Of a stretch of DNA of 38,154 bases, positions 16,937-34,826 are shown in pieces. Numbering within the stretch: the stretch's first letter is position 1; every line of letters starts with the position of its first letter. The notes beneath the pieces were generated by a model. It saw nothing but the letters and a program-made list of their open reading frames with translations, did not search any database and was not told the origin of the DNA. Source of the DNA: Bacteroidota bacterium (GTDB lineage Bacteria > Bacteroidota > Bacteroidia > Chitinophagales > Chitinophagaceae); NCBI GenBank assembly GCA_030706635.1, contig JAUZOD010000039.1, positions 1 to 38,154 of the forward strand. The letters run 5' to 3'. A program made the translations under genes and the position numbers.

Positions 16937-16969
16937 AACGGGTTATAAATTTTGAGCTGCCGGTTATTT

Positions 16970-19165
16970 TTATTCTTCCTGCATCCGGGTATTATATTTG
17001 TCAAATAGTTTCTTTACAGTTTCCACTGCATTGTTTTGGGGTTCGGTGAGATATTTTTCGGTGTGACTGTTTACCCACTGCCATTCCCAAAGCTTCACGG
17101 AAGTTTCAAAATCGGTGGTTTCCATCCTGCTCCCGTTCAGCATCTTTGCTTTGAGGTAAACAAAGAACTGCTGCCATCTCGGTTTATAAAATCCTTTGAT
17201 CAGGCCCGCCCACTGCCTGTTGGCATATTCATGCAATTCACTATCCTTATCGCCCCATAAAGTGATGATGTCCCTGGCATTGCGCTCGTACAAATCTTTT
17301 TCCTGTTCCTCTTCGCCGCATCTTCTGGCATCGGCTATCCATTTGCCCAGTAAGAATTCTTTCCGTGTGGAAAGCAGGGCGTCCATATCATCCATCAATT
17401 CGGTAAACGCATTACTGTACTTGCTGAAAGAAACAGTATCGTGTTGCAGGTAGGCGAGCACCCATTTCTGTTGCAATGGCGTTGCATAGTTGGCCAGTAT
17501 CTGACGGGTCAGATCTACCAGATCGTATTGGAACCCGTCGCTGTTTTGCAATTCAGGGGCTGCATTCAGGAACAGGCTCCAGGCTTTTAGTAAGTCTTTT
17601 GGATTGTAATCCAGTTTGGTTCTCACGCGATCTGCCCAGACGTCGGTCGTCGGTCTGGATACAATAATGGATTCCGGTCCGCCTTCGCCCAGACCACCCT
17701 GGTAAACTGTTTTTTCCAGGATTTTCCAGGCCTCGTTAACATCGGCATTGAAACTTCCGTAGCGTTGCAAAGCATATTGTGTCAGCCAGGGGGCCAGGTC
17801 TACCGGTTTATCCTGCCACACATTTTCCAGCATCAGCTGATACAACGCCGGATTTTGTTCTATCCCTTCCGGCGTTAGGCCAATGCCTGCCATTTTTCCC
17901 GAGTTGGCATCATGCAGAGCGGCTGAAGGATCGTTCGCCACCTGGCTCATTCTTCCCCACAAAGAAATATTGCCACCAAAATTATGCAGCATATTCCAGA
18001 TCCAGGGTTTGCCATAATAAGCATGTGTTCTGTTCCACACAGGATGGCTCTCGCTATACAGGTCCAGGATGATCATGTGATCATCCGGTACGGCATTTAA
18101 TAAAGCCTGTATCTGCGTTTGTTTCCAGAAGGAGGCATTGTAATGGAACATCCAGCCCTGCATGAGCCAGACTGCTTTGGGATCTGCGGCAGACATGGAT
18201 TCAAAAACTTTTTTACTCATTCCGCTTAAATAAGTGGAGTCATCTGTCGGGGGCAGGTTCTCATTAAATGTATCTGCAGAATATAAATGATCCGTGCCGA
18301 ATGCTTTTGTTTGGGCTTCCATGAAAGATTTACCGATGGATTCAAACATGGGATCAGACGGGTCTAAAATATATACATCGGCAAATCCGGCGCCCCAGTT
18401 TGTTTTTTTTACTTTGGCAGAAGGGAATTTTTTTATGAAAGATGGAGGAACGTGCCCGGAGAATGCCGGAAGTACCGGTTTCATGCCCATGGATCTTTCT
18501 GCTGCGAGAATCTTTTGTTGTAAAGCTTTATGGGTATCCATCCAATGTTGGGGCAAGGGTCCTCCCCAGGCATCCAGATTGCCCATCCAGAACCAGGAAA
18601 AATAAGCAGGGCCGCAAAAGAACTGATCCAGTTCCTGATCACTGAATCCCAGGTTCCGGTAAACCTGCTGCCAGATGGCTTCTTCACCCGTCAGGGCAAG
18701 TGGGGTATTGATGCCGTTGAGCGCCATCCAGTCAATTTCCTTTTGCCAGCGATCCCAGTCCCACCACGCCATGGAATAGTTGAACGTGCAGTAGTTCAGA
18801 TAATAGCGGTATTGATAAGGCGTCGTTTTGTGAATTTTCTCCTTTACTACGGGCAGTAAAACCGGCAGATTCATGTTGATGCCATCCCAGGTAATTAAAC
18901 AATGGCAATAGTCTCTCAGATAATAATTGAGCGCGGACGCAATGCTGGTTCCGTTATTTCCGCGGAGAATGATTTTATTTTTTTTGCTTTCGATCTCGAA
19001 AACATCCTTACCCTTCGACGGAGCGATGTATTCGATTACGAATGCTGGGGCCCTGTCTTTTACGATTCTTTGTAGGAAATGAACAGCCGCCTCTTTATCC
19101 AGTTGAGAGAATGCCTGTTCGCCACATGCCGCGAGGCAAAGAAAAAGCAGTAAACGAATTTTCAT
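16970..19165 (-). CDS. GH89 alpha-N-acetylglucosaminidase (NAGLU family)
   Basis: 731 residues with a signal peptide ending near residue 20. Order of domains: a small N-terminal alpha/beta domain (about 21-115), a TIM barrel from YQYRYYLNYCTFNYSMAWWDW onward (quoted in part), and an all-helical C-terminal domain. The two catalytic glutamates, by comparison with human NAGLU Glu316 and Glu446, are Glu302 in ADTFNENLPP and Glu433 in LTPEGIEQNP. The enzyme releases terminal alpha-linked GlcNAc, for example from heparan-type chains or alpha-GlcNAc-capped mucin glycans. It lies between the susD terminator and the GH92 gene and should act in the periplasm or at the outer membrane. Confidence 0.94.
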   Translation of the reverse strand: MKIRLLLFLCLAACGEQAFSQLDKEAAVHFLQRIVKDRAPAFVIEYIAPSKGKDVFEIESKKNKIILRGNNGTSIASALNYYLRDYCHCLITWDGINMNLPVLLPVVKEKIHKTTPYQYRYYLNYCTFNYSMAWWDWDRWQKEIDWMALNGINTPLALTGEEAIWQQVYRNLGFSDQELDQFFCGPAYFSWFWMGNLDAWGGPLPQHWMDTHKALQQKILAAERSMGMKPVLPAFSGHVPPSFIKKFPSAKVKKTNWGAGFADVYILDPSDPMFESIGKSFMEAQTKAFGTDHLYSADTFNENLPPTDDSTYLSGMSKKVFESMSAADPKAVWLMQGWMFHYNASFWKQTQIQALLNAVPDDHMIILDLYSESHPVWNRTHAYYGKPWIWNMLHNFGGNISLWGRMSQVANDPSAALHDANSGKMAGIGLTPEGIEQNPALYQLMLENVWQDKPVDLAPWLTQYALQRYGSFNADVNEAWKILEKTVYQGGLGEGGPESIIVSRPTTDVWADRVRTKLDYNPKDLLKAWSLFLNAAPELQNSDGFQYDLVDLTRQILANYATPLQQKWVLAYLQHDTVSFSKYSNAFTELMDDMDALLSTRKEFLLGKWIADARRCGEEEQEKDLYERNARDIITLWGDKDSELHEYANRQWAGLIKGFYKPRWQQFFVYLKAKMLNGSRMETTDFETSVKLWEWQWVNSHTEKYLTEPQNNAVETVKKLFDKYNTRMQEE

Positions 19166-19177
19166 TTTTTATTTTTT

Positions 19178-19217
19178 AAAAAAGAAACCCATAAAGATTT
19201 AACTCTTTACGGGTTTC
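19178..19217 (-). terminator. Strong terminator between susD and the glycosidase genes
   Basis: On the minus strand GAAACCCGTAAAGA (19217-19204), loop GTTAAA, then TCTTTATGGGTTTC (19197-19184) give a 14-bp stem with one G-T type mismatch, followed directly by TTTTTT. It is 59 bases after the susD stop and 13 bases before the GH89 start codon, so it should partly or fully separate expression of the glycosidases from SusCD. Confidence 0.85.
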
Positions 19218-19275
19218 TAAATTAATTGAAAATATTCAAAAGATCAGTCAACCAAAGAATGCTCAGCCCGTCTCG

Positions 19276-20847: not shown

Positions 20848-20865
20848 GTCGTTCATTTTGTCAAA

Positions 20866-23800
20866 TTAAAAATTGATAGTTGCACCAATGGTAAAATTCC
20901 TGGCTGCAGGGTATTGCGCCACGTCTACGCCCCTTTGCGAGTTCGCCGGTTTGTTACCGCCGCTGGTATAACCTAATTCAGGCGTATATCCTTTATAGCT
21001 TGTCAGCATGAATAAATTATAGGAACTGACATATACGCGGATCTCGGGAATTTTTACGTCGCTGATCTGTTTGTTAGACAAGGTGTAACCCAGGGATAAG
21101 TTTTTCAACGACAGGTAATTTCCATTCTGTATCCAAAGATCAGATGAACGGTAATTGTTATTCAGGTTCTGGATGGTTAAACGGGGAATGGAATTGCTTG
21201 TGCCCTGTCCATGCCACCTGCCCAATTCCTCATTGTACCAGTTAAATACCTGCGTACCGTCAAGACCTGCAAGACGGTCGGCATTGTACAGTTTGAAACC
21301 CATTGAGCCTGCGAAATTGAACACCAGATCGAAACCACCGTAGTTCAAGGCACCATGAAAACCGAAAACGAAATGCGGATTCGGATCTCCGAGATTTACG
21401 CGGTCATTGTCATTAATGATGCCATCTTTTTTGCCGGCGGTACCATTTACATCCAGGAACTTCACATCTCCAGGTTTGATATTGGCCTTGTTCGGATCGT
21501 TGGCAATATTGGGATCGCTGTCGATTTCACTTTGCGTCTGATAAATGCCGGCGGTTTTAAAACCATAAAATGAAGCTAAAGGCTGCCCCTCGTAGGTGCG
21601 GGAAATATCCGTGTTTTCCCGTCCATACGGAGTTGATCCGATATAGGTTCCCGCGCCATATAATTTGGTCACCTTATTCCTGATGAAAGAACCATTCGCA
21701 CCAAAAGAATAGTTCAGTTTTCCTGCTTTGTTCTGGTAGTTCAGCTCAATTTCCACGCCGTGGTTATTAAGCGTGCCTATGTTCTGGTTAGGCAGCGTAA
21801 CGTTACCACCATCATCGGGCAGGTTGGTTTGCGCCCCGAAGGTTTCTACCAGCTGGAAGGGTACCAGCATGTCGGTTGTGTTTTTATCAAAATAAGTAAC
21901 GACCGCCGTCAGGTGATTATTAAGCGTGGCCAGTTCCATACTGATATTCGTCATTACGGCTCTTTCCCAGGTGATATTGGGATTTGCCAGTCCGGTTACC
22001 ACTGCGCCGCTCTGCAGCACGTTACCGGTTCCCAGATTGTAGCCGTAACCACCGCTATAACCAATCGTACTCAGGTATTGGAAATCTCCAATGTTCTGAT
22101 TACCCAATTGCCCCCAGCCACCGGTGATTTTTAAGGAATTGATTGTTTTCTTCAGGTTTTCACCATAAAAATGTTCGTCAGATACGCGCCAGCCTGCAGA
22201 AAATGCCGGGAAATAACCCCAGCGTTTGCCAGGAGCAAATTTGCTGGATCCATCAGCGCGCATGGTTACGGTTAACAGGTATCTGTTCTGAAAAGCGTAA
22301 TTGCCGCGGATGAAATAAGACTGCAATCCTGAAGTGGCATAATTGTAGCCGGAGTTCGATTGGGAAGAATTGCTCCCCAGATTGAGTACGCGCTGGTCAA
22401 CACTGGTATCTGCAAATCCGGATCTGGCTGCGTTGAAATAATTTCCGCTGGATACCTGGGAGGAATATCCGGCAGTGAGGTTCAGTTCATGGGAAGAACC
22501 GAACTGCTTAACATAGTTCAGGTAATATTCTTCCAGAAAGGACCTGCTTTTTCCAAAGGTCCGGTTCAGGCTCGCGATGGAAGGCCCGCGGGTTTGGTCC
22601 GGCATTGCATTACTGTAATAATCGCCTTCACCAACGCTCTGATCATATCCGTAGTTGGCCCGTAATTTCAAACCTTTGATGATCTCGAGCTCAGCATAGC
22701 CGTTAGCCAGGAGGCGGTCTGTTGAGCCATAACCCGTGTTTTCATTTGCGGTTGCAACCGGGTTATTGATATCGCCCAACTGGTTGTCGGCCTGAGAAGT
22801 TCCCCAGCTGCCATCCGGGTTAAGTACCGGGATAGCCGGGTTAAAACGTATAGCGCTCCAAACCAAACCGGTTTGGGTTGATTTGGTATCCGGATTAAGT
22901 CCGTTGGTATTGGAATAAACCACGTTCTCGCCAACCCGTATACGGCTGCCGATCTTATGCTCTGAATTCATTCTGAAGCTATACCGTCTGAAATAAGAAT
23001 TGACGATCAATCCTTTTTCATCATAATAGTTGCCGGAAAAACTGTAGGTGGAACTGGCATTTCCTCCGCGAACGGCGATGTCGGCATTGTTCACATGACC
23101 TGTGCCTAATAAAGCTTTTTGCCAGTCTGTCCGCTGTGTCGCATAATAAGGATCGCTCCAGAGGGTGGGTACGGAAAGACCATCATTATTATAAGCTTCC
23201 TGTTTAAGGGTAACCAGGTCCGGCGCCTTGAGCATATTCAGGTACTTAACCGCTTTATTGCTGCCTGTGTAGAGATTCAGCGTGGTCTTTAATTTTTCTC
23301 CGAAGTTTCCTTTTTTGGTCGTAATGATCACTACTCCGTTTGCAGCGCGTGATCCGTAAATAGCGGAAGAAGATGCATCTTTCAAAATTTCAACAGAAGC
23401 GATATCGTTGGGGTTCACATCATTTAATCCTCCGGCTGGAACACCATCTATGACGACCAGCGGATCAGAATTATTCAGGGTACCCGTACCCCGGATGCGT
23501 ATGCTGGGCGTACTTCCCGGAGAACCGTCGTCCCGAACAATATCCACGCCGGAGGCCCTGCCCTGTAAGGCATCTGCCGCATTACTCACTGGCAGGTTTT
23601 TGAAATCATCTCCTTTCACGCTGCTGATGGTGCCGGTTACATCCCGTTTTTTCTGTGTACCATAACCCACTACCACCACTTCATTGAGTCCTGCTGCGCT
23701 TGGCTGTAATTGTATTGAAACCGCCTGCCGGCCATTCACGTCAACAATCTGATCCTTGTATCCTACATAGCTGATCGTTAACTGGGCGTTGTCAGGACCC

Positions 23801-24318
23801 ACTATGCTGAAGTTTCCGTTTTCATCGGAAAGAACCGTTTTATTGGATTTGTTTAATCTAATGGTTACCCCGCTCAGTGGGTTGCCATTCTCGTCCACCA
23901 CCTTTCCCCTGATCTCCCCATCGGCGACGGCCGTAGCCTCGGTAAGATCATCCTGCTTCGCGGGAGAAATGATCACCATATTCCCGTTGTTGATGGTGTA
24001 CGTGAATTTATCTCCAAGGATCATATTCAGTATCTGGTCCAGTGGCGAGTCCGTAACTTCCAGATCCACTTTGCCCAGTTTACTGATATAACCATTGTTG
24101 TAGAAAAAACGGTAATTACTTTCTTTCTCTATAGTGGCAAAAATTTTGGCTACTTCTGCTTTCTTGAAATGCAGGCTGAATTTTTCCTGGGAATTGCCGC
24201 GGGCTGAAACCTGCAGACAGGTAATCAGAATCAGGGCAACGCTGAGTTTCATAAGCAGGAGAAATTTTAGGCAAGGTAATAGAGCCTTAAAAGTGGTTGC
24301 CTTTTTGAATTTCTTCAT
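20866..24318 (-). CDS. susC: SusC/RagA-family TonB-dependent transporter with STN signalling domain
   Basis: 1150 residues. A long signal region (LKFLLLMKLSVALILITCLQVSA-like, about 17-39; quoted loosely) is followed by an STN domain (about 45-115; FSLHFKKAEVAKIFATIEK). Next come a carboxypeptidase-regulatory-like domain (about 130-210; IRGKVVDENGNPLSGVTIRL), the SusC signature LNEVVVVGYGTQKKRDVTG, the plug (IRIRGTGTLNNSDPLVVIDG) and a 22-strand barrel ending in ARNFTIGATINF. The STN domain is the part that contacts FecR-type anti-sigma factors, and such a pair lies directly upstream, so transport and transcription are probably linked. It imports oligosaccharides using TonB. Confidence 0.96.
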   Translation of the reverse strand: MKKFKKATTFKALLPCLKFLLLMKLSVALILITCLQVSARGNSQEKFSLHFKKAEVAKIFATIEKESNYRFFYNNGYISKLGKVDLEVTDSPLDQILNMILGDKFTYTINNGNMVIISPAKQDDLTEATAVADGEIRGKVVDENGNPLSGVTIRLNKSNKTVLSDENGNFSIVGPDNAQLTISYVGYKDQIVDVNGRQAVSIQLQPSAAGLNEVVVVGYGTQKKRDVTGTISSVKGDDFKNLPVSNAADALQGRASGVDIVRDDGSPGSTPSIRIRGTGTLNNSDPLVVIDGVPAGGLNDVNPNDIASVEILKDASSSAIYGSRAANGVVIITTKKGNFGEKLKTTLNLYTGSNKAVKYLNMLKAPDLVTLKQEAYNNDGLSVPTLWSDPYYATQRTDWQKALLGTGHVNNADIAVRGGNASSTYSFSGNYYDEKGLIVNSYFRRYSFRMNSEHKIGSRIRVGENVVYSNTNGLNPDTKSTQTGLVWSAIRFNPAIPVLNPDGSWGTSQADNQLGDINNPVATANENTGYGSTDRLLANGYAELEIIKGLKLRANYGYDQSVGEGDYYSNAMPDQTRGPSIASLNRTFGKSRSFLEEYYLNYVKQFGSSHELNLTAGYSSQVSSGNYFNAARSGFADTSVDQRVLNLGSNSSQSNSGYNYATSGLQSYFIRGNYAFQNRYLLTVTMRADGSSKFAPGKRWGYFPAFSAGWRVSDEHFYGENLKKTINSLKITGGWGQLGNQNIGDFQYLSTIGYSGGYGYNLGTGNVLQSGAVVTGLANPNITWERAVMTNISMELATLNNHLTAVVTYFDKNTTDMLVPFQLVETFGAQTNLPDDGGNVTLPNQNIGTLNNHGVEIELNYQNKAGKLNYSFGANGSFIRNKVTKLYGAGTYIGSTPYGRENTDISRTYEGQPLASFYGFKTAGIYQTQSEIDSDPNIANDPNKANIKPGDVKFLDVNGTAGKKDGIINDNDRVNLGDPNPHFVFGFHGALNYGGFDLVFNFAGSMGFKLYNADRLAGLDGTQVFNWYNEELGRWHGQGTSNSIPRLTIQNLNNNYRSSDLWIQNGNYLSLKNLSLGYTLSNKQISDVKIPEIRVYVSSYNLFMLTSYKGYTPELGYTSGGNKPANSQRGVDVAQYPAARNFTIGATINF

Positions 24319-24458: not shown

Positions 24459-25553
24459 TTAAAAAAGATGGATCTCGTTTCCATTTATCCGGTAATTGAA
24501 CCTTGTTGTCATTTTAAGGATTTCCAATACCTGAGTAATGTTTTCCTTTTCAAATACTCCGCTGATGTGTTCCTGTTTCAGTGCACTGTTATCGAAATAA
24601 ACCGTCACATCATATTTTCTTTCCAGCAGTCTGGCCACATTTTCAAAGTCCTCGTTGCTGAGCACCATTTTATGGTCGAGCCATGCCGTTTCAACATAAT
24701 TGTTATTTACAGCTGCGGGCAGTACCTGAACCTGGTATCTCAGTTCATTGCTGACTTCCGGAGCCCGGACTTTGACAGGATCTGATTTCGGTTCGTTGAT
24801 TACAGTGAGCTTTTCATGCGGGAATAGCATAATTTTCTTTTCCTCATCGTCATTCAGCATCACCTGCACTTTTCCGCTGATCAGCGTAGTTTCTATATCG
24901 GCATCTTCCTTATAAGCTTTTATATTAAACCGGGTTCCCAATACCCGCACTTTTATTTTGCCGGCATGAACCAGAAAGGGAGCGTTGGCGCTTTGGGTCA
25001 CTTCGAAAAAGGCCTCTCCCTCCAGAGTTACCTCCCGGCTTGTGTTCGAAAAATGTTCGGGATATATCAGTTTGCTGCCTGCGTTCAACCTCACCCGGGT
25101 ACCATCAGACAGCGTGATTTCCGAAGTGGACCCGTTATGGACCACCGCTGTTTTGCTGACGGTTGCCGACTGCGATTTGTTGTAATAGGAGCGATAATAT
25201 AGTAAAGAGGCGCAGGCGCAAACAAAAATGGCCGCGGCAGCCGCCCACCGCCGGAGGTATAGATGAAATTGGTTTGAGAAGGAGCGTTCGTTAGGGAGCC
25301 CGGATTCAACCTCGTTTCCCGGTTCCGTATTTAGCCGGTCTGTCAGATGCTGCCAGCCATGGTTTACAAGCTCTTCCCTGGGAATATTCCTTTCGAAATG
25401 ATTCCTGCTGCCTTTCAGGGAAAGGACGATCTCCTGTAAATAGGCATAGTCAGGATACCTGGATAACAAGGCGGCCAGTTCGCTCAATTCTTCATCAGAG
25501 GCGCTGTTGCCGGTTTTTTTGGCCATCAATTCTATGATCCTTGATTTTTCCAT
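24459..25553 (-). CDS. FecR-family anti-sigma factor with DUF4974
   Basis: 364 residues. The cytoplasmic N-terminus (1-100; sigma-binding) includes SDEELSELAALLSRYPD. One membrane span follows (about 103-120, Ala/Leu-rich). The periplasmic FecR domain (about 135-235) carries ITLSDGTRVRLNAGSKLIYP, EVTLEGEAFFEV, PFLVHAGKIKVRVLGTRFNI, and the C-terminal DUF4974 (about 290-363) ends with FNYRINGNEIHLF. It should hold the adjacent ECF sigma factor until the SusC STN domain signals substrate. It begins 114 bases after the sigma gene and ends 140 bases before susC. Confidence 0.95.
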   Translation of the reverse strand: MEKSRIIELMAKKTGNSASDEELSELAALLSRYPDYAYLQEIVLSLKGSRNHFERNIPREELVNHGWQHLTDRLNTEPGNEVESGLPNERSFSNQFHLYLRRWAAAAAIFVCACASLLYYRSYYNKSQSATVSKTAVVHNGSTSEITLSDGTRVRLNAGSKLIYPEHFSNTSREVTLEGEAFFEVTQSANAPFLVHAGKIKVRVLGTRFNIKAYKEDADIETTLISGKVQVMLNDDEEKKIMLFPHEKLTVINEPKSDPVKVRAPEVSNELRYQVQVLPAAVNNNYVETAWLDHKMVLSNEDFENVARLLERKYDVTVYFDNSALKQEHISGVFEKENITQVLEILKMTTRFNYRINGNEIHLF

Positions 25554-25667
25554 ATGTTACAGCATTCCGTATCTGCAAATCAGGACACCCGAGAGGGCCA
25601 ATATTCTTAAAACGAACCGAACTTTTTTTTTCCGGGAGGAAAGGGGGAGATCCTGCCATCGCCTGGT

Positions 25668-26225
25668 TTAAGCCTTTAAATGGACCGGCTTCAGGAATGG
25701 CTTAAGCAGTTGTTCCAGCTTCTTTAAAGCGATGGTTAGCTGGGTGTTAACGGTCTTATAGGAGATTTCCAGAATTTCCGCGACTTCTGTGCTGGATAAG
25801 CCATCTTCTTTTACCAGTTTGAATATCAGTTTGCATTTGGGGGGCAACTGGTCAATGGAAGATTCTATCGTTTTCTTCAGTTCATTGGTAATAAGCGCCT
25901 GCTCCGGATCTGGGCTCAGGTAAAAGTGGGTCACTACAAACCGCTCATGATCTATATTCTTTTTGGAAGTCAGCTTACGTAAATAATTGGCAGCCGTATT
26001 CTTGATGGCAACGTACAGATACACGTTAATGTTTTTGATGGAATCAAGGCTTCCCCGTTTTTGCCATAATTTCAGAAAAACATCGTTTACGATCTCTTCG
26101 GCCAGTTGTTTGTTTTGTATAAAAGCATAGGCAAACTGGAATAGTTTAAACACATTCTCCTCATACAGCTCCTTAAAGGCAGTTTCATCGTTTTCAAATT
26201 GTATGCGCTTGAGTAAAGTATTCAT
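25668..26225 (-). CDS. ECF-family RNA polymerase sigma factor (Bacteroidota PUL type)
   Basis: 185 residues with region 2 at about 10-80 (ELYEENVFKLFQFAYAFI, AEEIVNDVFLKLW) and region 4 at about 125-178 (QLPPKCKLIFKLVKEDGL, STEVAEILEISYKTVNTQL). No region 3 is present, as expected for ECF factors. With the FecR gene it forms the cis-encoded sigma/anti-sigma pair of this PUL, likely driving susC onward. Its start codon is 6 bases after the stop of the FG-GAP gene, so it is likely to be transcribed with that gene as well. Confidence 0.95.
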   Translation of the reverse strand: MNTLLKRIQFENDETAFKELYEENVFKLFQFAYAFIQNKQLAEEIVNDVFLKLWQKRGSLDSIKNINVYLYVAIKNTAANYLRKLTSKKNIDHERFVVTHFYLSPDPEQALITNELKKTIESSIDQLPPKCKLIFKLVKEDGLSSTEVAEILEISYKTVNTQLTIALKKLEQLLKPFLKPVHLKA

Positions 26226-26231
26226 AATTTT

Positions 26232-29200
26232 TTAATGCCCAGGTTTAACCACCTGTATGCTGCCATTGCTTTTGGCCACTATGATCAGATAATCATTACC
26301 CGTCGTGATATCCATAATATTTCTAACATCACCTGTCAGGCATAAGCCGGTTTTTGCGTAAGTTAAAGGCGTGAATCCTCCTTTGCCATCCCCTTTTAAA
26401 ACCAATCCCATTCCCGCATCCAGCGGACCCTGCTGTACCCGGAAGGGGTAGAAGTTGCCTGCTAAAATGATGTCTTTGTGACCGTCTCCGTCAACGTCTT
26501 TAACGATCATTCCATTAATAACACTCATTTGTGCGTAATCGGGCAGGTCAGACTGGGTAAAGGTTCTGTTCCCGTTATTACGCAGGTACACGGATTTGGT
26601 TGTTTTTATTTCAACGGATTTGGAATCAGCTAATTGTTCTGCACTGAAAAGATCTGGCAGCCGGGCATCTGCATAGTCTGCATACCGGCTGAATTTTTTT
26701 TGAAGACCCGGCAATTCACGCAGTATTTCATCGCGTGTGAAATAAGGATAACTCTTGCCGCCATTGTAATAACTCAGTATGGGATCAATAATGCCGTCCT
26801 GATTAAAATCTGCGTAGGTTATGGTCAATGGTTCATCGGCCGTGGCTTTAAATTGTGTGTTGAGACCAAGATTGCCGATCACCAGGTCGGTATCCCCGTC
26901 ATGATCAAAGTCGCCGGTAAGTATCCTGCACCACCAGCCTGCCGTTTCGGATAAACCGTAGGCTTTGGTTTGGTCAGTCAATCTGCCTTTTTGATTTTCA
27001 AATATGCGAACAGGCATAAATTGTCCTACAACAACCAGGTCTTCCCATCCGTCCTTATTCAGATCAAGCCACAAAGCATCGGTGACCATGCCCGGATGTG
27101 CGAGCACGGAATCATTTTGAACAACATCTTTTTCAAATCTGATTTTACCGGGAACACTTTTGTTTTTCAGAATAAAACTTTCCGGCGATTCGGGAAATAG
27201 CCCCGGCTGAATGCGACTGCCTACAAATAAGTCCGGCAGCCCGTCGTGATCAATGTCTGCAGCGCGAACACAGGAGCCGCTCACCGTTTCCGCCGGAAGG
27301 GCGCCATCCTGTTTTTTAAAATTCCCGTGACCATCATTCTGAAATATCCTGTCCTGGTAGTTTTTGCTGTTCAGCGGATAGTCTGCCCCGCCGCTTACCA
27401 CGTAAAGGTCCGGATGACCATCTCCATCCGCGTCAAAAAAAAGCGCATCCGTGTTGGTAATATTCTTATCCGCGTTCCAGGGCTGGCTCGGAGAGGGAAT
27501 AAATTTTCCGTCTCTGGTTTGAAGGTACAATATGCTTTCCTGGCCTGAAGAAGCGCCGATAAACAGATCTTCCAGCCCGTCTCCATTTACATCTGCTTTC
27601 GCCAGACAGGGCCCGGTTTTCGACAATTGGTAGGGCAGCAGCGGAGATATTTTAAAGTCTACAAAATTGGATTGATGATCGGTAAAATGGATCCCGGAAT
27701 TTTGGGTCACATCCCGGAAAAGGGGTGCCACGGCTGGTTCATCCTTACCCGGAGCAGCAGGCGAAGCTGCGCTTTCATCGATGACCAGCAGCGTATCTGC
27801 TTTTATGTTTTGGAGCAACGTTTCTTTTCCGCCAGGCCATTTTACTTTTAGCGTTTGGATCAGACTATCGGCTCCTAAACCGATATGCATTATGGGATCG
27901 ACAGAAGACTGAAACCCCCTGGCCGTATATTCTTCCTGCATCTGACTTCCGTGTGCCGTTTGAACGTACAGCTTTGCGCCGATGCCGAAAGTATTTTTCC
28001 CTTCGCCCCTGAACCTTATCTTTAAAAAGTGCGCCCGTTTGTTGTCTGAACTGTTGTTTTTATAAATGGTCACTTCATCATTCAGATTATTGATCACCAG
28101 GTCCAGGTCGCCGTCATTATCCAGGTCAGCATAAACCGCCCCGTTGTTAATGGATTTTTTGGTTATTCCCCAGTCGTTCGTCACATTGGTAAAACGGAGA
28201 CCGTGATCATTCCTGAATAAATAATTATTCAATTTGGTGGAAGGCATATCCTGCACCAGTTGCCACATCTGTAGTTTATTGCCGTTTTTTTCCTTGTATT
28301 CTGAGGAATAACCGGAAGTGTACTTCACAAAATCCAGGTTGGTCATATCCCTCAGGATACCGTTGGAAATAAAGAGATCTTTCCATCCATCATTATCAAA
28401 GTCGGCAAACAAAGGCGCCCAGCTCCAGTCGGTATTGGATACGCCCGCCATTTGTCCTACTTCGCTGAATATCGGCATGCCGCTGCTGTCTGTGCCGTTG
28501 TTCAACTGGAGGGTATTGCGCATTTGCTGATGATGGAAGCCATGATCCACCCGCAGGGTGTACTTGTCGTAACTGTCTGCGCCGCGCAATAGTTTTTGCC
28601 TGTGATTCCCTTCGGGCAGCATATCGAGAACCATAATGTCGGGCCGGTCATCGTTATTGTAATCGGCGATATCAGAACCCATCGCAAATTCAGAAATATG
28701 ACCGGCTGCCTTGTCCAGCACTTCCCGGAATGTTCCGTCGTGATTGTTGAGATAAAGGAAATCCCTTTCATCATAATCATTCGTGACATAGATATCTGGC
28801 CAGCCATCGTTATTCACATCGCTGATGGCAGCGCTCAGTCCGAAATTAAGTCCGCTTCCATTGATGTGCGCCGAATCGCTCACATCGGTAAAATGACCAT
28901 TATCGTTCCGGTAAAGGCGGTTGCCGAATTTCGGATTCCGTTTGGCCCGCAGTTTATCCGTATTGAAGTAAGGATTAAAGAACATGTCGGCGTGATTCAC
29001 CATGAACATATCGAGGTCGCCATCATTGTCCATATCAAAAAACGCCACCGTTGTGGTATAGGTGCCGGGCGCATCCAGCCCGTATTCTTTTGCGGATTCC
29101 TTAAAAACCGGAATGCCATCTTTCAACCCCTGATTTATATACAACTCGTTGCATCTTTCTTCGTCCGTTCCCGGCCCGGAATAGCAGACATATATATCCA

Positions 29201-29576
29201 GCAGTCCATCCCCATTTATATCTGCCATCACCACGCCGGTTTTCCATCTGGACCGCCCTTGAATACCGGCCTTATCCGTGACGTCTTCAAACTGAAAATT
29301 TCCCTTATTGAGGTACAATTTATTGGAGACCATATTGCCGGTGAAAATGATATCGGGCAGACCATCGTTGTTCAGGTCGCCTACCGCCACTCCGCCGCCA
29401 TTATACAGGTATTCATATGTAAGAATATTATAATCTACATTTTCCTTTATATCGTTCCGGAAATTAATATGGGATTGGGAAGAAGGGATCTCTGTAAAAA
29501 CCGTTTTAGCTTGATTCCTGCAGGCTGCCAGCAAGAGAACTGGGATGAGAAGAGACGGAACGGATTTGAATTTCAT
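26232..29576 (-). CDS. Large FG-GAP/VCBS-repeat lipoprotein with ASPIC/UnbV domain
   Basis: 1114 residues with a lipoprotein signal (LLLAAC, Cys19). The first half has several FG-GAP/VCBS blades with calcium-binding DxDxDG-like loops: VGDLNNDGLPDI, MADINGDGLLDI, FFDMDNDGDLDM, ISDVNNDGWPDI, FADFDNDGWKDL and YADLDNDGDLDL. An ASPIC/UnbV domain follows at about 517-600 (GIGAKLYVQT, LKVKWPGGKETLLQNI), then a second propeller-like half to the C-terminus. Such CRTAC1-like proteins are calcium-binding beta-propellers at the cell surface. They often accompany SusCD genes in Chitinophagaceae, presumably in glycan or protein binding. It lies 6 bases upstream of the sigma gene. Confidence 0.9.
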   Translation of the reverse strand: MKFKSVPSLLIPVLLLAACRNQAKTVFTEIPSSQSHINFRNDIKENVDYNILTYEYLYNGGGVAVGDLNNDGLPDIIFTGNMVSNKLYLNKGNFQFEDVTDKAGIQGRSRWKTGVVMADINGDGLLDIYVCYSGPGTDEERCNELYINQGLKDGIPVFKESAKEYGLDAPGTYTTTVAFFDMDNDGDLDMFMVNHADMFFNPYFNTDKLRAKRNPKFGNRLYRNDNGHFTDVSDSAHINGSGLNFGLSAAISDVNNDGWPDIYVTNDYDERDFLYLNNHDGTFREVLDKAAGHISEFAMGSDIADYNNDDRPDIMVLDMLPEGNHRQKLLRGADSYDKYTLRVDHGFHHQQMRNTLQLNNGTDSSGMPIFSEVGQMAGVSNTDWSWAPLFADFDNDGWKDLFISNGILRDMTNLDFVKYTSGYSSEYKEKNGNKLQMWQLVQDMPSTKLNNYLFRNDHGLRFTNVTNDWGITKKSINNGAVYADLDNDGDLDLVINNLNDEVTIYKNNSSDNKRAHFLKIRFRGEGKNTFGIGAKLYVQTAHGSQMQEEYTARGFQSSVDPIMHIGLGADSLIQTLKVKWPGGKETLLQNIKADTLLVIDESAASPAAPGKDEPAVAPLFRDVTQNSGIHFTDHQSNFVDFKISPLLPYQLSKTGPCLAKADVNGDGLEDLFIGASSGQESILYLQTRDGKFIPSPSQPWNADKNITNTDALFFDADGDGHPDLYVVSGGADYPLNSKNYQDRIFQNDGHGNFKKQDGALPAETVSGSCVRAADIDHDGLPDLFVGSRIQPGLFPESPESFILKNKSVPGKIRFEKDVVQNDSVLAHPGMVTDALWLDLNKDGWEDLVVVGQFMPVRIFENQKGRLTDQTKAYGLSETAGWWCRILTGDFDHDGDTDLVIGNLGLNTQFKATADEPLTITYADFNQDGIIDPILSYYNGGKSYPYFTRDEILRELPGLQKKFSRYADYADARLPDLFSAEQLADSKSVEIKTTKSVYLRNNGNRTFTQSDLPDYAQMSVINGMIVKDVDGDGHKDIILAGNFYPFRVQQGPLDAGMGLVLKGDGKGGFTPLTYAKTGLCLTGDVRNIMDITTGNDYLIIVAKSNGSIQVVKPGH

Positions 29577-29829: not shown

Positions 29830-31077
29830 CTATCTGTGGGGAGCAAATATCGGATTGGCAATGCCGTTGAGGTCATATACTACTTTCCCTCCGCGGATGG
29901 TCAATTCAGCTTCCAGTCTTTTGTCGGCTTCTATTTTCTGGCCTGTATAATCAAAGAAACCAAACTTGCCCTTACGCAGGTTGAGAACTGCTACATCGGC
30001 TTCAGCTCCCACCGACAGATTACCCAGTTCCGTATGTTTTATTTCCTGGGCCGGGTTCCAGGTGGAAGCCCTGATCACGGCATTCAGGTCCATGCCCATG
30101 GCCATGAACTTGGATGCAATATTCAACATGTCTTTCATTGCGTTGTTCATACTGCCGGTATGCAGGTCGCTGCTGAGCGAATTGGGCGGAAAACCTTGTT
30201 TCAGTGCGGGAATGGCCTGTGAAAAAGAGAAGCTGATCCCGCCATATCCCACGTCAAAAATGATCCCTTTTTTCCGGGCTTCCCATGCCAGGGGCTTGAC
30301 TTTCCAGCTGAGCGTGTCTACGATGGATTCGCGGGATCTTAACTGGGCATAGCAATGGGTAAAAATATCGCCGGGCCTCAGGTGTTTTTCAAAAAGCTCA
30401 TCAATGGAAAGGGGAGGATTACTTCCGCCAAAATCAATCATCACCGGGATGTTCGCGATCTTTCCGCCCTCTACCGCCTGATCCACCGGTTTCCAGTCAG
30501 GTCCTTCGAAATGTGCCACTTTTATTCCGACAACGATTTTCGGATTGGCCCGGGCGACCATGGCAGTAAGTCTTCCGTCCATATCGGCAGGGTTCTGTTC
30601 ATAGGGGCCGCCCCGCATGCCTTCCCCGACGATATTCAGAAATACTAAAATCCTCGTCTGGGAATTGTCAATGATATTTTTTTTGAACAAGGCAAAACTC
30701 TTCCATCCCGAACTGCCGGCATCCACTACAGTGGTCACACCGGTACGGAATGTGAATCCGTCCGGTGCAATGGCAGAAAGCCCGTCGCTGAGATAGTGGT
30801 CTGGTTCGGTGCCAAAGAAATCATGGGTATGAATATCGATCAGACCGGGAGTGACATATAATCCGGTTGCGTTCACCACCTGTATGGCATTTGATGTATC
30901 GACCTTTTTTGAAACAGCAGCAATCTTTCCGTCTTTGATGCCAATATCCATAGCAGCATCGATATTATTCTTCGGATCAATCACATGACCACCACGGATG
31001 ACGATATCGTAGGATTGTCCGTAGCTGAAAAAAGATACCAGAATTAAAGCGACGAGACTGCATGCTGTTTTCCCCAT
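29830..31077 (-). CDS. Exported amidohydrolase/deacetylase-family metallohydrolase
   Basis: 415 residues from ATG 31077, giving a signal peptide MGKTACSLVALILVSFFSYG; the frame is open to 31104 but that start would overlap the upstream stop. Amidohydrolase-superfamily metal sites, numbered from this start: GLIDIHTH (His83, His85), VVGIKVAHFEG (Lys186, likely carboxylated bridge), IFTHCYAQ (His241) and SSDLHTG (Asp304). The overall sequence is of the EF_0837/AHA_3915-like 'amidohydrolase/deacetylase' group, whose cytoplasmic members neighbour SelA-like/DgaE enzymes and KDPG-type aldolases. It should hydrolyse an N-acyl or cyclic amide bond, here outside the cytoplasm. It is 23 bases after the cytochrome gene. 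Confidence 0.85.
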   Translation of the reverse strand: MGKTACSLVALILVSFFSYGQSYDIVIRGGHVIDPKNNIDAAMDIGIKDGKIAAVSKKVDTSNAIQVVNATGLYVTPGLIDIHTHDFFGTEPDHYLSDGLSAIAPDGFTFRTGVTTVVDAGSSGWKSFALFKKNIIDNSQTRILVFLNIVGEGMRGGPYEQNPADMDGRLTAMVARANPKIVVGIKVAHFEGPDWKPVDQAVEGGKIANIPVMIDFGGSNPPLSIDELFEKHLRPGDIFTHCYAQLRSRESIVDTLSWKVKPLAWEARKKGIIFDVGYGGISFSFSQAIPALKQGFPPNSLSSDLHTGSMNNAMKDMLNIASKFMAMGMDLNAVIRASTWNPAQEIKHTELGNLSVGAEADVAVLNLRKGKFGFFDYTGQKIEADKRLEAELTIRGGKVVYDLNGIANPIFAPHR

Positions 31078-31100
31078 GATGTTTTCTTTATGATAAATAA

Positions 31101-32945
31101 TCAATGTTTTTTTGAATTTGACTTCACCTTATTGCCGGTCTTTGATGGCAGAATAACCTTCCAGATATGGCCTTCCCTTCCGCCGTATTCAATCACATAG
31201 GCAATATTGCCGATGAGCACGGCATCGGTGGGCTGGCGGAACCCATCCACAATCCGCGTAGTGTGCATCGTAAAGTTGTCCATGGTTTTATCATAGGTCA
31301 TCTCCAGATGCAGCATGTCCGATCCCTGAGACGTGAAGGCACGCATCATGCCCTCATTCCTGCCGAGGGTATAACGGATCACGAATCCATCTCCCCGTAA
31401 ATCATCCGAAAGCACTTTTTTAGTGTCGAAAAACAAACCCAGCGGTGAGGAATGCGGGGTGAACGTACTAACGGCAACGCCTGTCTGATCCCCGTCAAGC
31501 ACCCTGCCGGTATGTCCCCGGTACTCGTTGGCATCAGGTCCCATATTCTGTACCCCGGCGGAGAATTTCACACCGGGTGGAATTTTGGGGAAAGTAGAAT
31601 CATTGTAGTAGTAGTGCACCCGCCAGGAGTGCGAATTGGGATTGATGAAAGAATCTGTGGCGGGATCCGGTTTCCATCCCGGAAATTGCATGGGATTCTC
31701 ATCTCCTCCCAGTAACCACGGAAATCCATAATGATGATTTTGTCTTAGCCAGAACATATCTTCCGGAAAATCATAGTCGGAAGAATTAACCACCGCAAAA
31801 AGATTTCCGGAACCGTCAAAGGCCATGTCAAACGCATTCCGGATCCCCTCGGCATAGAGATAGCCTTCGGCCCTGAGTTTTGCCGTGTCCATCGGCAATA
31901 CGAGGTCTTTTGTGTCAATGGGAAACCTGAAAATTTTGGACGTCAGCGCATTGTCCCGCGCGTTGGGATATAGACCCCCGTTATCCTCGATCTCGCCGTG
32001 ATCGGTGCGGGCGCCACTGTTCACAAAAATATATTTGCCGTCGGGACTTACCGCGAGTGCATTCCAGCCATGATCGTAAATGGTTTTGTTGGATGGATAT
32101 TCCGGTGTAGTGAAGACGACGGACATCCGGGGAGGTCCCGATTTTCCGAAATCAAAACGGACCATTCTTCCACTCGTACCCTGTTTATGATTCAGGTCCA
32201 CATTGCCGCAGAGAAAAAGAGTATTCCTGTTCCAGATGGCCCCCTGTAATCTTCCGATACCGTGATCTGCGGCAGTCAGGATCTTCACGGAGTCGGGATG
32301 ACCGCTGTTGAGGTTCCTGATTTGAAATACATCACCATCAAAAGTAGTGTAATAGAGGTCACCGGTTACCGGGTTCTGCAGAAGGCGAACAGCCAGCGGT
32401 CCGATGTTCATCAAATGTTCGATTTTGATATCCGGACGTAAGGCTCTTGGTGGAACCAGGGTTTCCTCCTGGTAGGAAAGGCTCCTGATATAAGCAACGA
32501 GGGACCAGCGTTGTTCATCCGTGAAGCTGGTTTTGAAAGAAGGCATAATGCCCCTGCCGGTAGTGATTTTCCAGTACAGGGCGCCGACAGGTTCTTTTTT
32601 TATTTTTTCCGAATGGAAATTAGCTGGTTTCTGAGACTGTCCCTGCGCGGCGCCCCCATCTCCATAACCCTGCGGCCCATGGCAGGATACGCATTGCAGT
32701 GAGTACAACTCCATTCCCTTTCTTACCGCTATATCAAAGTCTTCAAATCCGGGTCTGAGTTTTCGCGCTTCCTCCGGCGCAACCCATTCCTTACTATAAT
32801 CGTCAGGCTCTTTTTTTTCCGATTTATCTGATTTGCAACGGGAGATTCCCGATAAGAAAAAAATCGCCAAAGCGAAAGCAGATACAACTTTAATTGTTTT
32901 GCTGATCTTAAGCTTTTTTGTGAACCGGTCGGAGCTTGTGTTCAT
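31101..32945 (-). CDS. Cytochrome c fused to a sugar-dehydrogenase-like beta-propeller
   Basis: 614 residues from ATG 32945. The frame extends to 33008 and there is another ATG at 32966, but the extra upstream codons lie in the heptamer repeat. A hydrophobic export signal (VVSAFALAIFFLSGI) ends before SRCKSD; a lipidated Cys is possible but Arg at -1 is atypical. Counting from this start, heme c binds at CVSCH (85-89) with axial Met134 in GRGIMPSF. From about 165 on comes a propeller similar to PQQ/soluble aldose sugar dehydrogenases, with HGWNALAVSPDGKYIF, NSGARTDHGE, GIRNAFDMAFDGSGNL and LRQNHHYGFPWLLGGDENP. It probably oxidises a sugar or sugar derivative in the periplasm and passes electrons to its own heme. 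Confidence 0.8.
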   Translation of the reverse strand: MNTSSDRFTKKLKISKTIKVVSAFALAIFFLSGISRCKSDKSEKKEPDDYSKEWVAPEEARKLRPGFEDFDIAVRKGMELYSLQCVSCHGPQGYGDGGAAQGQSQKPANFHSEKIKKEPVGALYWKITTGRGIMPSFKTSFTDEQRWSLVAYIRSLSYQEETLVPPRALRPDIKIEHLMNIGPLAVRLLQNPVTGDLYYTTFDGDVFQIRNLNSGHPDSVKILTAADHGIGRLQGAIWNRNTLFLCGNVDLNHKQGTSGRMVRFDFGKSGPPRMSVVFTTPEYPSNKTIYDHGWNALAVSPDGKYIFVNSGARTDHGEIEDNGGLYPNARDNALTSKIFRFPIDTKDLVLPMDTAKLRAEGYLYAEGIRNAFDMAFDGSGNLFAVVNSSDYDFPEDMFWLRQNHHYGFPWLLGGDENPMQFPGWKPDPATDSFINPNSHSWRVHYYYNDSTFPKIPPGVKFSAGVQNMGPDANEYRGHTGRVLDGDQTGVAVSTFTPHSSPLGLFFDTKKVLSDDLRGDGFVIRYTLGRNEGMMRAFTSQGSDMLHLEMTYDKTMDNFTMHTTRIVDGFRQPTDAVLIGNIAYVIEYGGREGHIWKVILPSKTGNKVKSNSKKH

Positions 32946-32993
32946 CGTTCTATGGCGTTGTTTCATGCAAAAATGAATGAATCCTACGGAGAA

Positions 32994-33083
32994 GTTGACG
33001 GTTGACAATTGACGGTTGACCGGCTTCAGTTACGCGTTCGCAATAAAACTCGGCCAACCGTCAACCATCATTAATCGTCAACC
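32994..33083. repeat. Inverted heptamer repeat (gttgacg type) overlapping a stop codon
   Basis: Left arm: gttgacg, gttgaca, attgacg, gttgacc, gg (32994-33023). Right arm (33051-33083), read on the opposite strand: gttgacg, attaatg, atg, gttgacg, gttggcc. The TGA stop of the PLP-enzyme gene (33080-33078) is part of the last unit of the right arm. The left arm lies just upstream of the cytochrome gene start. Confidence 0.9.
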
Positions 33084-34292
33084 AAAAACAGCGGAAAGTT
33101 CCTCCCTCACCCTCCTCGCCACGATCTTTTCCTGGCCCGGTCTCATCACCCATACCGTAATGTGAATGCCTTTGTCGTACGGCATCACTTCGATGGATGG
33201 ATTACCATTCCTTAATTTTTCAACGAAATCTTTTATGGGGAGCCGGTTGAGATCCCATGACAATTCCAGCGTCGGGGTGATATTGCCCAATGGCGGCACA
33301 AACACCCTGGTGGTTACGCCTTTAACCGATTTGGCCGCATTTTCAATGGTAGCGGTATTAGCTTCCCAGAGTTTCCATTCCGCTTCGTGATCATAGTTGA
33401 TGTAATGCTGCAATGCGGCATACATACCGAAGATCTCTTCCTTGTTTACTTTCATGCCCCTGCCAATATTGAAACCACGGGGCGGCATGTGTAATCTTGC
33501 TGCGGTAACGATATCCTTTTTGCCCATCAGCAAACCGGCGCTTTGCGGACCCCGCAGGGCTTTGCCTCCGGAGATGACCACGAAATGAAAGCCCATATCA
33601 TTGAACTTCCAGAGATTTGACACCGGCGGAACATCGGCAGCGATATCTATGGAGGTCGGTATGCTGTGCTTTTCGCCCAGCGCGACCCATTCTTCATGCA
33701 TGATCTTTCCGTGGTCGGCTTCAATATTCAGGAAATGCATGAGGGCGGTATTGCCATTGATGGCTTTTTCCACATCCTCCGTTGTTTCAACCACAATCAG
33801 TTTGGCGCCGGTGTTGGTCAGCGCGTGATTATAATCAATGGCATGTGCTTTCTGGATCAGTATTTCGGTTTTCATCCCCGAGCCCTCCAGTTGAGGAAGC
33901 ATCTTCACTTTTTCCACGTCATTGCCGGTCAGAACACCTGCGACGCCCAGGGTGAGGGCGGAAAAAGCACCCGCAGTTACCACAGCGGATTCCGCGTGAA
34001 CCATCGCCGCAATCTTTTCGCCTACTTTATCCTGCAATTCATCGAGCAGGCAGAAATCGCCGGCAGTATTCCGGATGGCATCGATCACTTCTTCCCGCAT
34101 CAGCGAGCCGGTCATGAATGTATAGGTGCCGGCGGCATTGATGAAGGGTCGTACCCCGAGTTCTTCGAAGAGGTTGCGTTTGCTGTTCTGGCCCGTGCCA
34201 GCCTTTGCTTTTTTTGGAATGATCAGGTCGCCGCCCAGGGTTGCGGCAAAGGGGAGAATGGTTAATCCCCTCAGCATGTCTCTGCGTTTCAT
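33078..34292 (-). CDS. Exported SelA/DgaE-like PLP-dependent enzyme (candidate ammonia-lyase)
   Basis: 404 residues. The N-terminus KRRDMLRGLTILPFAATLGG resembles a twin-arginine signal. The fold-type I PLP core follows: GVRPFINAAGTYTFMTGSLM, ESAVVTAGAFSALTLGVAGV, SIDIAADVPP (Asp216/Asp220) and VVISGGKALRGPQSAGLL with Lys244 as the Schiff-base lysine. It belongs with SelA-like enzymes such as DgaE, D-glucosaminate-6-phosphate ammonia-lyase, not with true selenocysteine synthases. Export of a PLP enzyme through Tat makes sense because the cofactor is inserted before export. It probably eliminates ammonia from an amino-sugar acid or beta-hydroxy amino acid. It lies between the ridA-like and cytochrome genes; its stop codon is within a repeat. 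Confidence 0.82.
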   Translation of the reverse strand: MKRRDMLRGLTILPFAATLGGDLIIPKKAKAGTGQNSKRNLFEELGVRPFINAAGTYTFMTGSLMREEVIDAIRNTAGDFCLLDELQDKVGEKIAAMVHAESAVVTAGAFSALTLGVAGVLTGNDVEKVKMLPQLEGSGMKTEILIQKAHAIDYNHALTNTGAKLIVVETTEDVEKAINGNTALMHFLNIEADHGKIMHEEWVALGEKHSIPTSIDIAADVPPVSNLWKFNDMGFHFVVISGGKALRGPQSAGLLMGKKDIVTAARLHMPPRGFNIGRGMKVNKEEIFGMYAALQHYINYDHEAEWKLWEANTATIENAAKSVKGVTTRVFVPPLGNITPTLELSWDLNRLPIKDFVEKLRNGNPSIEVMPYDKGIHITVWVMRPGQEKIVARRVREELSAVFG

Positions 34293-34343
34293 ATGGCTCC
34301 GTTTTTTCGTTAGGTAAAAAGCTTCAGATCCGGGATCCGGCCG

Positions 34344-34826
34344 TTACACGTGGGCTATGCAATCCATTTCTACCAGCGAATTTCCCGGAACACCGCCTTT
34401 CATTACGGCCACGGTAGTGCGCACCGGCGGATTTTCTCCAAACCGACCCCCGTAAACTTCGTTCATTCCCTTGTAATCGGCAATATCATTGAGGAATACA
34501 CTTACTTTTAAAACCTTTTCCATGGAGGAGCCTGCTTCGATCAGTACTTTCTCCATTTGCTTGAGCACGATCTCTGTGTGCGCTTTGATCTCGAAGGGTT
34601 CCACATGAGCGCCTATACCGGCGACATAAATCAGGTCTCCAAACCGTGTGAAACTCGAAAACAGCGGTACATTCTCAAAATGAGTAATGTTACCGGATAT
34701 TTTTTCTTCCTTTTTAGGCTTTTCAGCCAGGGGATTGTTCATGGCTTTGGCCGACAGGCCGATGCCGGCAATCCCTGCAATGGAGGCCATTATTTTTTTC
34801 AAAGCAGATCTGCGTTGTGTTGGCAT
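34344..34826 (-). CDS. Exported RidA-family enamine/imine deaminase
   Basis: 160 residues, about 35 longer than cytoplasmic RidA because of an N-terminal export signal, QRRSALKKIMASIAGIAGIG, with twin-arginine character. The RidA domain spans about 45-160: LIYVAGIGAHVE, HTEIVLKQMEKVLIEAGSS, VSVFLNDIADYKGMNEVY, and the active-site arginine in PPVRTTVAV (Arg136) with Glu153 in LVEMDCIAHV. RidA enzymes hydrolyse reactive enamine/imine products of PLP-dependent lyases to keto acids and ammonia. Placement 51 bases before a PLP-enzyme gene, and the shared signal type, suggest the two work together outside the cytoplasm. Confidence 0.88.
   Translation of the reverse strand: MPTQRRSALKKIMASIAGIAGIGLSAKAMNNPLAEKPKKEEKISGNITHFENVPLFSSFTRFGDLIYVAGIGAHVEPFEIKAHTEIVLKQMEKVLIEAGSSMEKVLKVSVFLNDIADYKGMNEVYGGRFGENPPVRTTVAVMKGGVPGNSLVEMDCIAHV

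Follow-up and report, generated by a model that had tools for sequence, protein, structure and literature searches.

A recurrent Bacteroidota gene set whose exported products appear to degrade amino sugars outside the inner membrane

The DNA analysed in this study is a stretch of 38,154 nt of contig JAUZOD010000039.1 (GCA_030706635.1), referred to as the window, and all window coordinates are positions in this stretch. Between 29830 and 34826 it carries a run of four open reading frames (ORFs) on the minus strand, encoding a RidA-family protein, a SelA/DgaE-like enzyme dependent on pyridoxal phosphate (PLP), a protein that joins a cytochrome c domain to a propeller, and an amidohydrolase; the genes are 51, 132 and 23 bases apart. 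An earlier note on this DNA had described four consecutive genes, each with an export signal, and this was confirmed by the ORFs, the family matches and a signal scan. Recurring in soil and water bacteria, this exported set appears, from the sequence evidence presented below, to degrade amino sugars (for example, those from chitin) outside the inner membrane.

The four genes and their products

The SelA/DgaE-like PLP enzyme (33078..34292, minus strand, as for all features of the cluster) is proposed to be an exported amino-sugar-acid ammonia-lyase. It scored 151.1 bits against the DgaE model TIGR01437, below the curated cut-off of 385.3, and matched PF03841 at 7.8e-07. Its nearest solved structures, both by sequence and by fold, are 7lc0, a D-glucosaminate-6-phosphate ammonia-lyase (DGL), and 8t7j (Cap15). 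Residues 1-38 (34179..34292), comprising a signal of the twin-arginine translocation (Tat) type and an N-terminal extension, precede the part aligned to 7lc0, which begins at profile position 40. Structure prediction, one of the checks suggested in the earlier note, succeeded for this protein (predicted local distance difference test score, pLDDT, of 84), with 7lc0 as the best fold match and Cap15 next, while the model of the propeller was poor. The modelled fold is thus that of SelA and DGL and not fold type III, the fold of the deaminase OngC discussed below.

For residue comparisons, sites were mapped through the profile alignment and the PLP lysine of 7lc0 was taken as residue 213 from its SGxK motif; the published work writes this lysine as Lys-217, whereas its numbering of the His and Arg residues agrees with the chain index (PMC9529869). 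The corresponding lysine, K244 in the window protein (33561..33563), is kept in all 122 PLP enzymes compared, as expected for a DGL-type enzyme. In contrast, the positions of Arg301, Arg332 and Arg346, which lie near the substrate phosphate in 7lc0, are occupied by arginine in none of the 122 sequences (2, 10 and 3 of which, respectively, are gapped there). As Cap15 shows all three arginines in the same alignment, the alignment is able to reveal them when they are present. The loss of these phosphate-site arginines is in keeping with a non-phosphorylated amino-sugar acid as substrate.

A second residue of DGL, His-163, also has no counterpart in these enzymes, as it falls in a two-residue gap, and a nearby histidine (position 189) is found in only 6 of 28 sequences. 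His-163 is the proton donor and is strictly conserved in DGL; the H163A mutant builds up a transient intermediate, and RidA has been named as the remover of such enamines (PMC9529869). We therefore suggest that the exported PLP enzymes, having no His-163 counterpart, would free an enamine and depend on their RidA partner. If so, they provide a natural case in which loss of the proton donor accompanies a regular RidA partner.

A longer PLP subtype (about 535-573 aa) was seen in L006:13310-17628, L117:10079-14456 and L183:11940-16198 (L numbers designate loci in other contigs or genomes). It is followed by two divergent amidohydrolases, with a GSDH-cytochrome gene nearby, and all 8 sequences carry glycine where 7lc0 has Arg346.

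The RidA-family protein (34344..34826) matched PF01042 at 2.8e-19. Residues R136 and E153, which we take to be the catalytic Arg and Glu of RidA, are each present in 66 of 66 family members. RutC and RidA belong to one superfamily.

In the third protein (31101..32945), the cytochrome c domain matched PF13442 at 3.4e-13, with the haem-c motif CVSCH at residues 85-89 (32679..32693). The propeller gave no GSDH match in the Pfam scan, and a profile search against PDB sequences returned nothing useful, so that its assignment rests on conserved motifs and a low-confidence fold model (pLDDT 67), for which the best PDB match was the soluble glucose dehydrogenase 1c9u, an enzyme dependent on pyrroloquinoline quinone (PQQ), at an E value of 2.6e-12. 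With low confidence, it may be regarded as a putative PQQ-type sugar dehydrogenase.

The amidohydrolase (29830..31077), a proposed N-acetylhexosaminate deacetylase, scored 444.8 bits against NF006689, above the curated cut-off of 371. H83, H85, H241 and D304 are invariant in 27 of 27 sequences, and K186 and D215 are kept in at least 90%. Structures 8je0, 2ogj, 2ics and 8wzy, amidohydrolases of the cog3964 group, are homologous to it over nearly the full length. With the OngB-type structure 9kb1, the match was confined to residues 19-88 (E 2.2e-6), short of full-length homology of the D-aminoacylase type. For this gene and the cytochrome-propeller gene we preferred the ATG starts at 31077 and 32945, respectively, over TTG codons.

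Export signals and conservation

Export was called using home-made hydrophobic-segment and twin-arginine rules, not SignalP. All four cluster proteins scored above the threshold, unlike the enzymes for arginine biosynthesis that the window also encodes. The N-termini of RidA (MPTQRRSALKK..., with the arginine pair at residues 5-6 and the Tat-type signal region at residues 1-29, 34740..34826, end approximate) and of the SelA-like enzyme (MKRRDMLRG...) carry twin arginines, and the signal of the amidohydrolase is of the Sec type. The N-terminal hydrophobic segment of the cytochrome-propeller ends in ...GISRC, an atypical lipobox, for which its relatives have ...LTGC (L004) or ...VVSC (L006); the cytochrome is placed on the periplasmic side because of the c-type haem motif itself.

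The earlier note had asked whether homologues keep their signal peptides, and by these rules most do. The hydrophobic-segment rule was passed by RidA (62/66), amidohydrolases (81/83), window-type propellers (29/30), RraA proteins (16/16), SGL proteins (16/21) and lactonases (15/17), but by only 66 of 101 PLP enzymes; none of 32 sigma factors and none of 30 FecR proteins passed. The twin-arginine pattern (window and own-genome copies left out) was present in 92 of 98 PLP enzymes and 57 of 64 RidA proteins, as compared to 2/82 amidohydrolases, 3/30 SusC proteins, 0/31 sigma factors and 0/29 FecR proteins. R3 and R4 of the PLP enzyme are invariant in 28 of 28 aligned sequences, and in a larger set the arginine pair is found in 120 of 122, the remaining 2 being gapped there. 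The Tat route suits an enzyme that carries PLP before export.

To survey co-occurrence, named genomes were scanned, and the best 80 of 173 stretches encoding a relative of the PLP enzyme gave 78 loci, in which this enzyme is 56-80% identical to that of the window over the best segment. Same-strand genes separated by gaps of less than 600 bases around the PLP gene(s) of each locus were counted as a run. From record titles we assigned the loci to 35 groups; because Dyadobacter contributes a large share of the loci, group counts are fairer than locus counts. The amidohydrolase was in a run at 62 loci and RidA at 56, and the two were found together at 54 (25 of the 35 groups). GSDH plus cytochrome was found in 35 runs, the window-type propeller in 28 (7 groups), an SBF transporter in 20, RraA in 14, a PF10282 lactonase in 13 and SGL in 11. 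The exact gene order of the window occurs in L004, L005, L064 and L186, and in L003, the closest relative, the RidA gene is absent from the run.

Similar results were obtained with seven other genomes drawn from the phylum, whose main loci (L117-L123) all have RidA and the amidohydrolase, together with GSDH-cytochrome (6), SGL (6) and RraA (4); note that L117 and L119 repeat genomes already among the 78-locus set (100% matches). As a control, 20 stretches, each of 19.9 kb and with 329 ORFs in all, were taken from seven of the surveyed genomes; they contained one GSDH-cytochrome gene and no PLP enzyme, RidA, amidohydrolase, SGL, RraA, SBF, second YjgF protein, CBM9, PF10282 lactonase or window-type propeller. 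The gene set is patchy, not universal: among 395 genomes in the phylum draw, a PLP-enzyme match at E <=0.001 was found in 24 (eight below 1e-100, own genome included), and within the family 62 of 147 genomes gave a match, of which we count 14 below 1e-80.

Neighbour families were named by a Pfam scan of one representative each. Recurrent neighbours include GSDH plus cytochrome c, SGL gluconolactonase-type proteins, the PF10282 lactonase and an exported RraA-type aldolase, as well as an SBF transporter, CBM9, a second YjgF protein, SusC/SusD and sigma/FecR. Single-locus additions are a PF01011 PQQ dehydrogenase (L179, L182), DUF4380 (L178, L179) and a PIG-L deacetylase (L176).

Most informative is L067, one locus of the 78, in which the order is PLP enzyme, amidohydrolase, DGOK kinase (1.9e-57), 2-keto-3-deoxy-6-phosphogluconate (KDPG) aldolase (1.9e-37), major facilitator superfamily (MFS) transporter and PLP enzyme, with gaps of less than 30 bases. 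The best NCBIfam model for the MFS protein is a D-galactonate transporter model (TIGR00893-type; 238.6 bits, below the cut-off of 395), and no export signal was seen by eye on the kinase or the aldolase. This run points to a 2-keto-3-deoxyhexonate product that would be formed outside and phosphorylated once imported.

In the genome of the closest relative (G395), an acetate kinase gene comes after the amidohydrolase in L003, and contig L187 carries a RidA-amidohydrolase-RraA run (the first two identified by eye), adjoined by an MFS-like gene and a glycoside hydrolase (GH) family 20 gene. A GH20 gene is also part of the run at L077 and L181 and lies near the cluster at L009 and L011. Since each genome examined has many GH20 matches (3 to 13), this proximity is modest support.

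Several further arrangements were observed. The amidohydrolase is fused to a YhcH/YjgK/YiaL (DUF386) domain in L177:14248-16038 and, judged from sequence, in L176:7079-8878; this family includes a sialic acid anomerase. In Spirosoma (L009:14313-17874), two FAD_oxidored (PF12831) genes stand ahead of the GH20 gene, downstream of the cluster. A twin-arginine DUF362 protein is encoded beside a second PLP gene, on the opposite strand, in L047, L051, L058, L070 and L079 (PF04015 scanned in L079 only).

Elsewhere in the window, a polysaccharide utilization locus (PUL) at 13661-24318 encodes GH92 (plus a laminin-G domain), GH89, SusD and SusC, and is adjoined by a FecR/sigma pair at 24459-26225; an FG-GAP/ASPIC-UnbV repeat protein with a lipoprotein-like signal (26232-29576) lies between the PUL and the cluster. 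The GH89 enzyme (16970..19165, minus strand; PF05089, 6.4e-147) had been put forward in the earlier note as the supplier of the substrate. We rejected it in that role, as BLAST found no match to it in any of the 78 loci, and in the window the FG-GAP gene and the sigma/FecR pair intervene; it lies outside the conserved system.

Proposed pathway and alternative explanations

From the genes, export-signal patterns, co-occurrence and residue losses observed, we infer the following reactions, their substrate and their order. We consider it fairly probable that the cluster encodes the central, extracytoplasmic part of a pathway for the oxidative breakdown of amino sugars, with N-acetylglucosamine (GlcNAc) as the favoured substrate. 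In this pathway: the PQQ-type dehydrogenase, to which a cytochrome c is fused, would oxidize the N-acetylhexosamine to a lactone and pass the electrons to the respiratory chain; the lactone would give N-acetylhexosaminate, either by a lactonase (seen at loci of relatives, not in the window) or by spontaneous opening; the amidohydrolase would remove acetate; the Tat-exported PLP enzyme would act on the free, non-phosphorylated hexosaminate, eliminating water and ammonia; and the Tat-exported RidA would hydrolyse the released enamine/imine to 2-keto-3-deoxyhexonate. This product might be cleaved outside by the exported RraA-type aldolase, or imported and then phosphorylated. As a model, the oxidative route that the earlier note had envisaged, lying outside the cytoplasm, using no phosphorylated intermediates and leading through an amino-sugar acid to ammonia and a 2-keto-3-deoxy acid, is supported by the gene neighbourhoods, the arginine loss and the conserved signals. 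More tentatively, an entire Entner-Doudoroff-like route from N-acetylhexosamine to pyruvate and glyceraldehyde, ending with the RraA-type aldolase, might be completed outside the membrane, in which case ammonia and acetate would be freed outside and electrons would go directly into the respiratory chain.

Several observations weigh against the proposed pathway. Neither RidA nor the amidohydrolase is in the run in 14 of the 78 loci (nine from Dyadobacter, and three on contigs under 6 kb), nor in L182; the second PLP gene of the window's own genome (L116) has no partner gene in its stretch of 19.5 kb, and a second copy in G203 (L124) is alone in a stretch of 10.7 kb. The run in the window itself has no lactonase, aldolase or transporter, and the exported RraA of this genome is in another cluster (L115:5669-9444, G000:C97). 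D215 of the amidohydrolase replaces the metal-ligand beta-5 His of 2ogj, 2ics and 8wzy. The steady-state activity of H163A is near normal (PMC9529869), and thus the missing His-163 is no proof that RidA is needed. Among 14 genomes that we chose and checked for other amino-sugar genes (GH18 in 13, GH20 in 14 and KDPG aldolase in 14), all have glucosamine-6-phosphate deaminase-type genes, so that an oxidative route would be dispensable for GlcNAc use, and PqqC had a match in 0/14, though the controls were equally silent. Finally, the second PLP enzyme of the window's genome, 47% identical to the first, adjoins a GH18 gene (L116:9696-12180, G000:C1), for which no match was found in 11 stretches, including the orthologue loci L176-L179 (70-84% identical); this GH18 was consequently dropped as general evidence.

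The RraA gene in L115 adjoins genes for a Tat-type protein of the enolase superfamily (sugar-acid dehydratase-like) and an MFS transporter; this cluster is perhaps another exported route to 2-keto-3-deoxy acids.

The same chemistry might act mainly on a substrate other than GlcNAc, such as N-acetylgalactosamine (GalNAc), N-acetylmannosamine, muramic acid or free glucosamine. Such a reading differs from the pathway proposed above in the substrate alone, so that its likelihood falls mostly within that proposal; taken by itself, we think it unlikely. The DGOK kinase and galactonate-type transporter in L067 imply the galacto series at that single locus, counting against GlcNAc there, and some loci have two or three divergent copies of the PLP enzyme and amidohydrolase, as if several isomers were used. 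GH20 neighbours decide nothing here, as GH20 enzymes release GlcNAc and GalNAc alike.

In our judgement it is quite improbable that the role of the amidohydrolase and PLP enzyme is instead to recover, from peptidoglycan or peptides, N-acyl-D-amino acids or D-hydroxy-amino acids (D-serine, D-threonine), with the dehydrogenase serving a separate function. Relatives of this amidohydrolase group do act on N-acetyl-D-amino acids and similar esters. OngC, which has a different PLP fold, deaminates D-serine and D-threonine too (PMC9537276). However, the recurrent lactonases, dehydrogenases, RraA-type aldolase and SusC/SusD, and the DGOK-KDPG aldolase-transporter run, would be unexpected for such a function. 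Least probable by far, in our view, is that the PLP enzyme is not a lyase and carries out oxygen-dependent PLP chemistry like Cap15. By fold 8t7j is as close as 7lc0, but Cap15 keeps the three arginines that this enzyme has lost, and a RidA partner suits a lyase better.

If the proposed amino-sugar pathway is correct, PLP-dependent deamination with a RidA partner, and possibly an aldolase step, takes place in the periplasm, a compartment in which one would not expect central carbon chemistry. Recurrent exported proteins of Bacteroidota, for which family models offer no more than the names SelA/DgaE-related, RidA and amidohydrolase, also gain a testable function.

Comparison with known systems

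The closest biochemical precedent is the ong pathway of Pseudoalteromonas prydzensis, in which N-acetylglucosaminic acid (GlcNAc1A) is deacetylated by OngB, deaminated to 2-keto-3-deoxygluconate by OngC and phosphorylated by KdgK (PMC9537276). Growth on GlcNAc1A there requires each of ongB, ongC and ongD, the last a RidA-family gene whose role is given as unknown, and OngB and OngC are predicted to be cytoplasmic (PMC9537276). Both systems thus combine a deacetylase, a PLP deaminase and a RidA-family protein, a combination proposed here and genetically needed there. They differ in that the ong enzymes are cytoplasmic by prediction, with OngB in the D-aminoacylase-like family (PMC12017989) and OngC of fold type III, whereas the Bacteroidota set is exported and belongs to other families. 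In the ong system, GlcNAc1A comes from a lytic polysaccharide monooxygenase (LPMO). We rejected an LPMO as the source of the oxidized acid here, as none was found in the 14 chosen genomes, with the control search positive in 1 of 14 control genomes; if correct, the proposed pathway is a second, LPMO-free route to oxidized amino sugars.

A predicted GlcNAc route of Natrarchaeobius, in haloarchaeal chitinase clusters, likewise has a DgaE-like gene, a glucose dehydrogenase and a RutC-family gene, but it is archaeal, and is predicted to proceed via a phosphorylated acid with a CE14 deacetylase; the part of the text examined contains no mention of export (PMC12343721).

Individual proteins show the same mixture of likeness and difference. 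The PLP enzyme shares its fold and PLP lysine with DGL (7lc0, the closest solved relative), but has a Tat-type signal and a RidA partner and is without the phosphate-site arginines and His-163. The modelled propeller resembles 1c9u, its best fold match, but is fused to cytochrome c and has no GSDH Pfam match. The amidohydrolase is homologous to 8je0, 2ogj, 2ics and 8wzy, from which it differs by its export signal and, for the last three, by an Asp in place of the beta-5 His. An exported version of the pathway was not found in the literature searched by titles and abstract openings, a coverage outside which most subscription journals fall. The chemistry proposed is of a known kind; what differs is its extracytoplasmic location and the set of enzymes.

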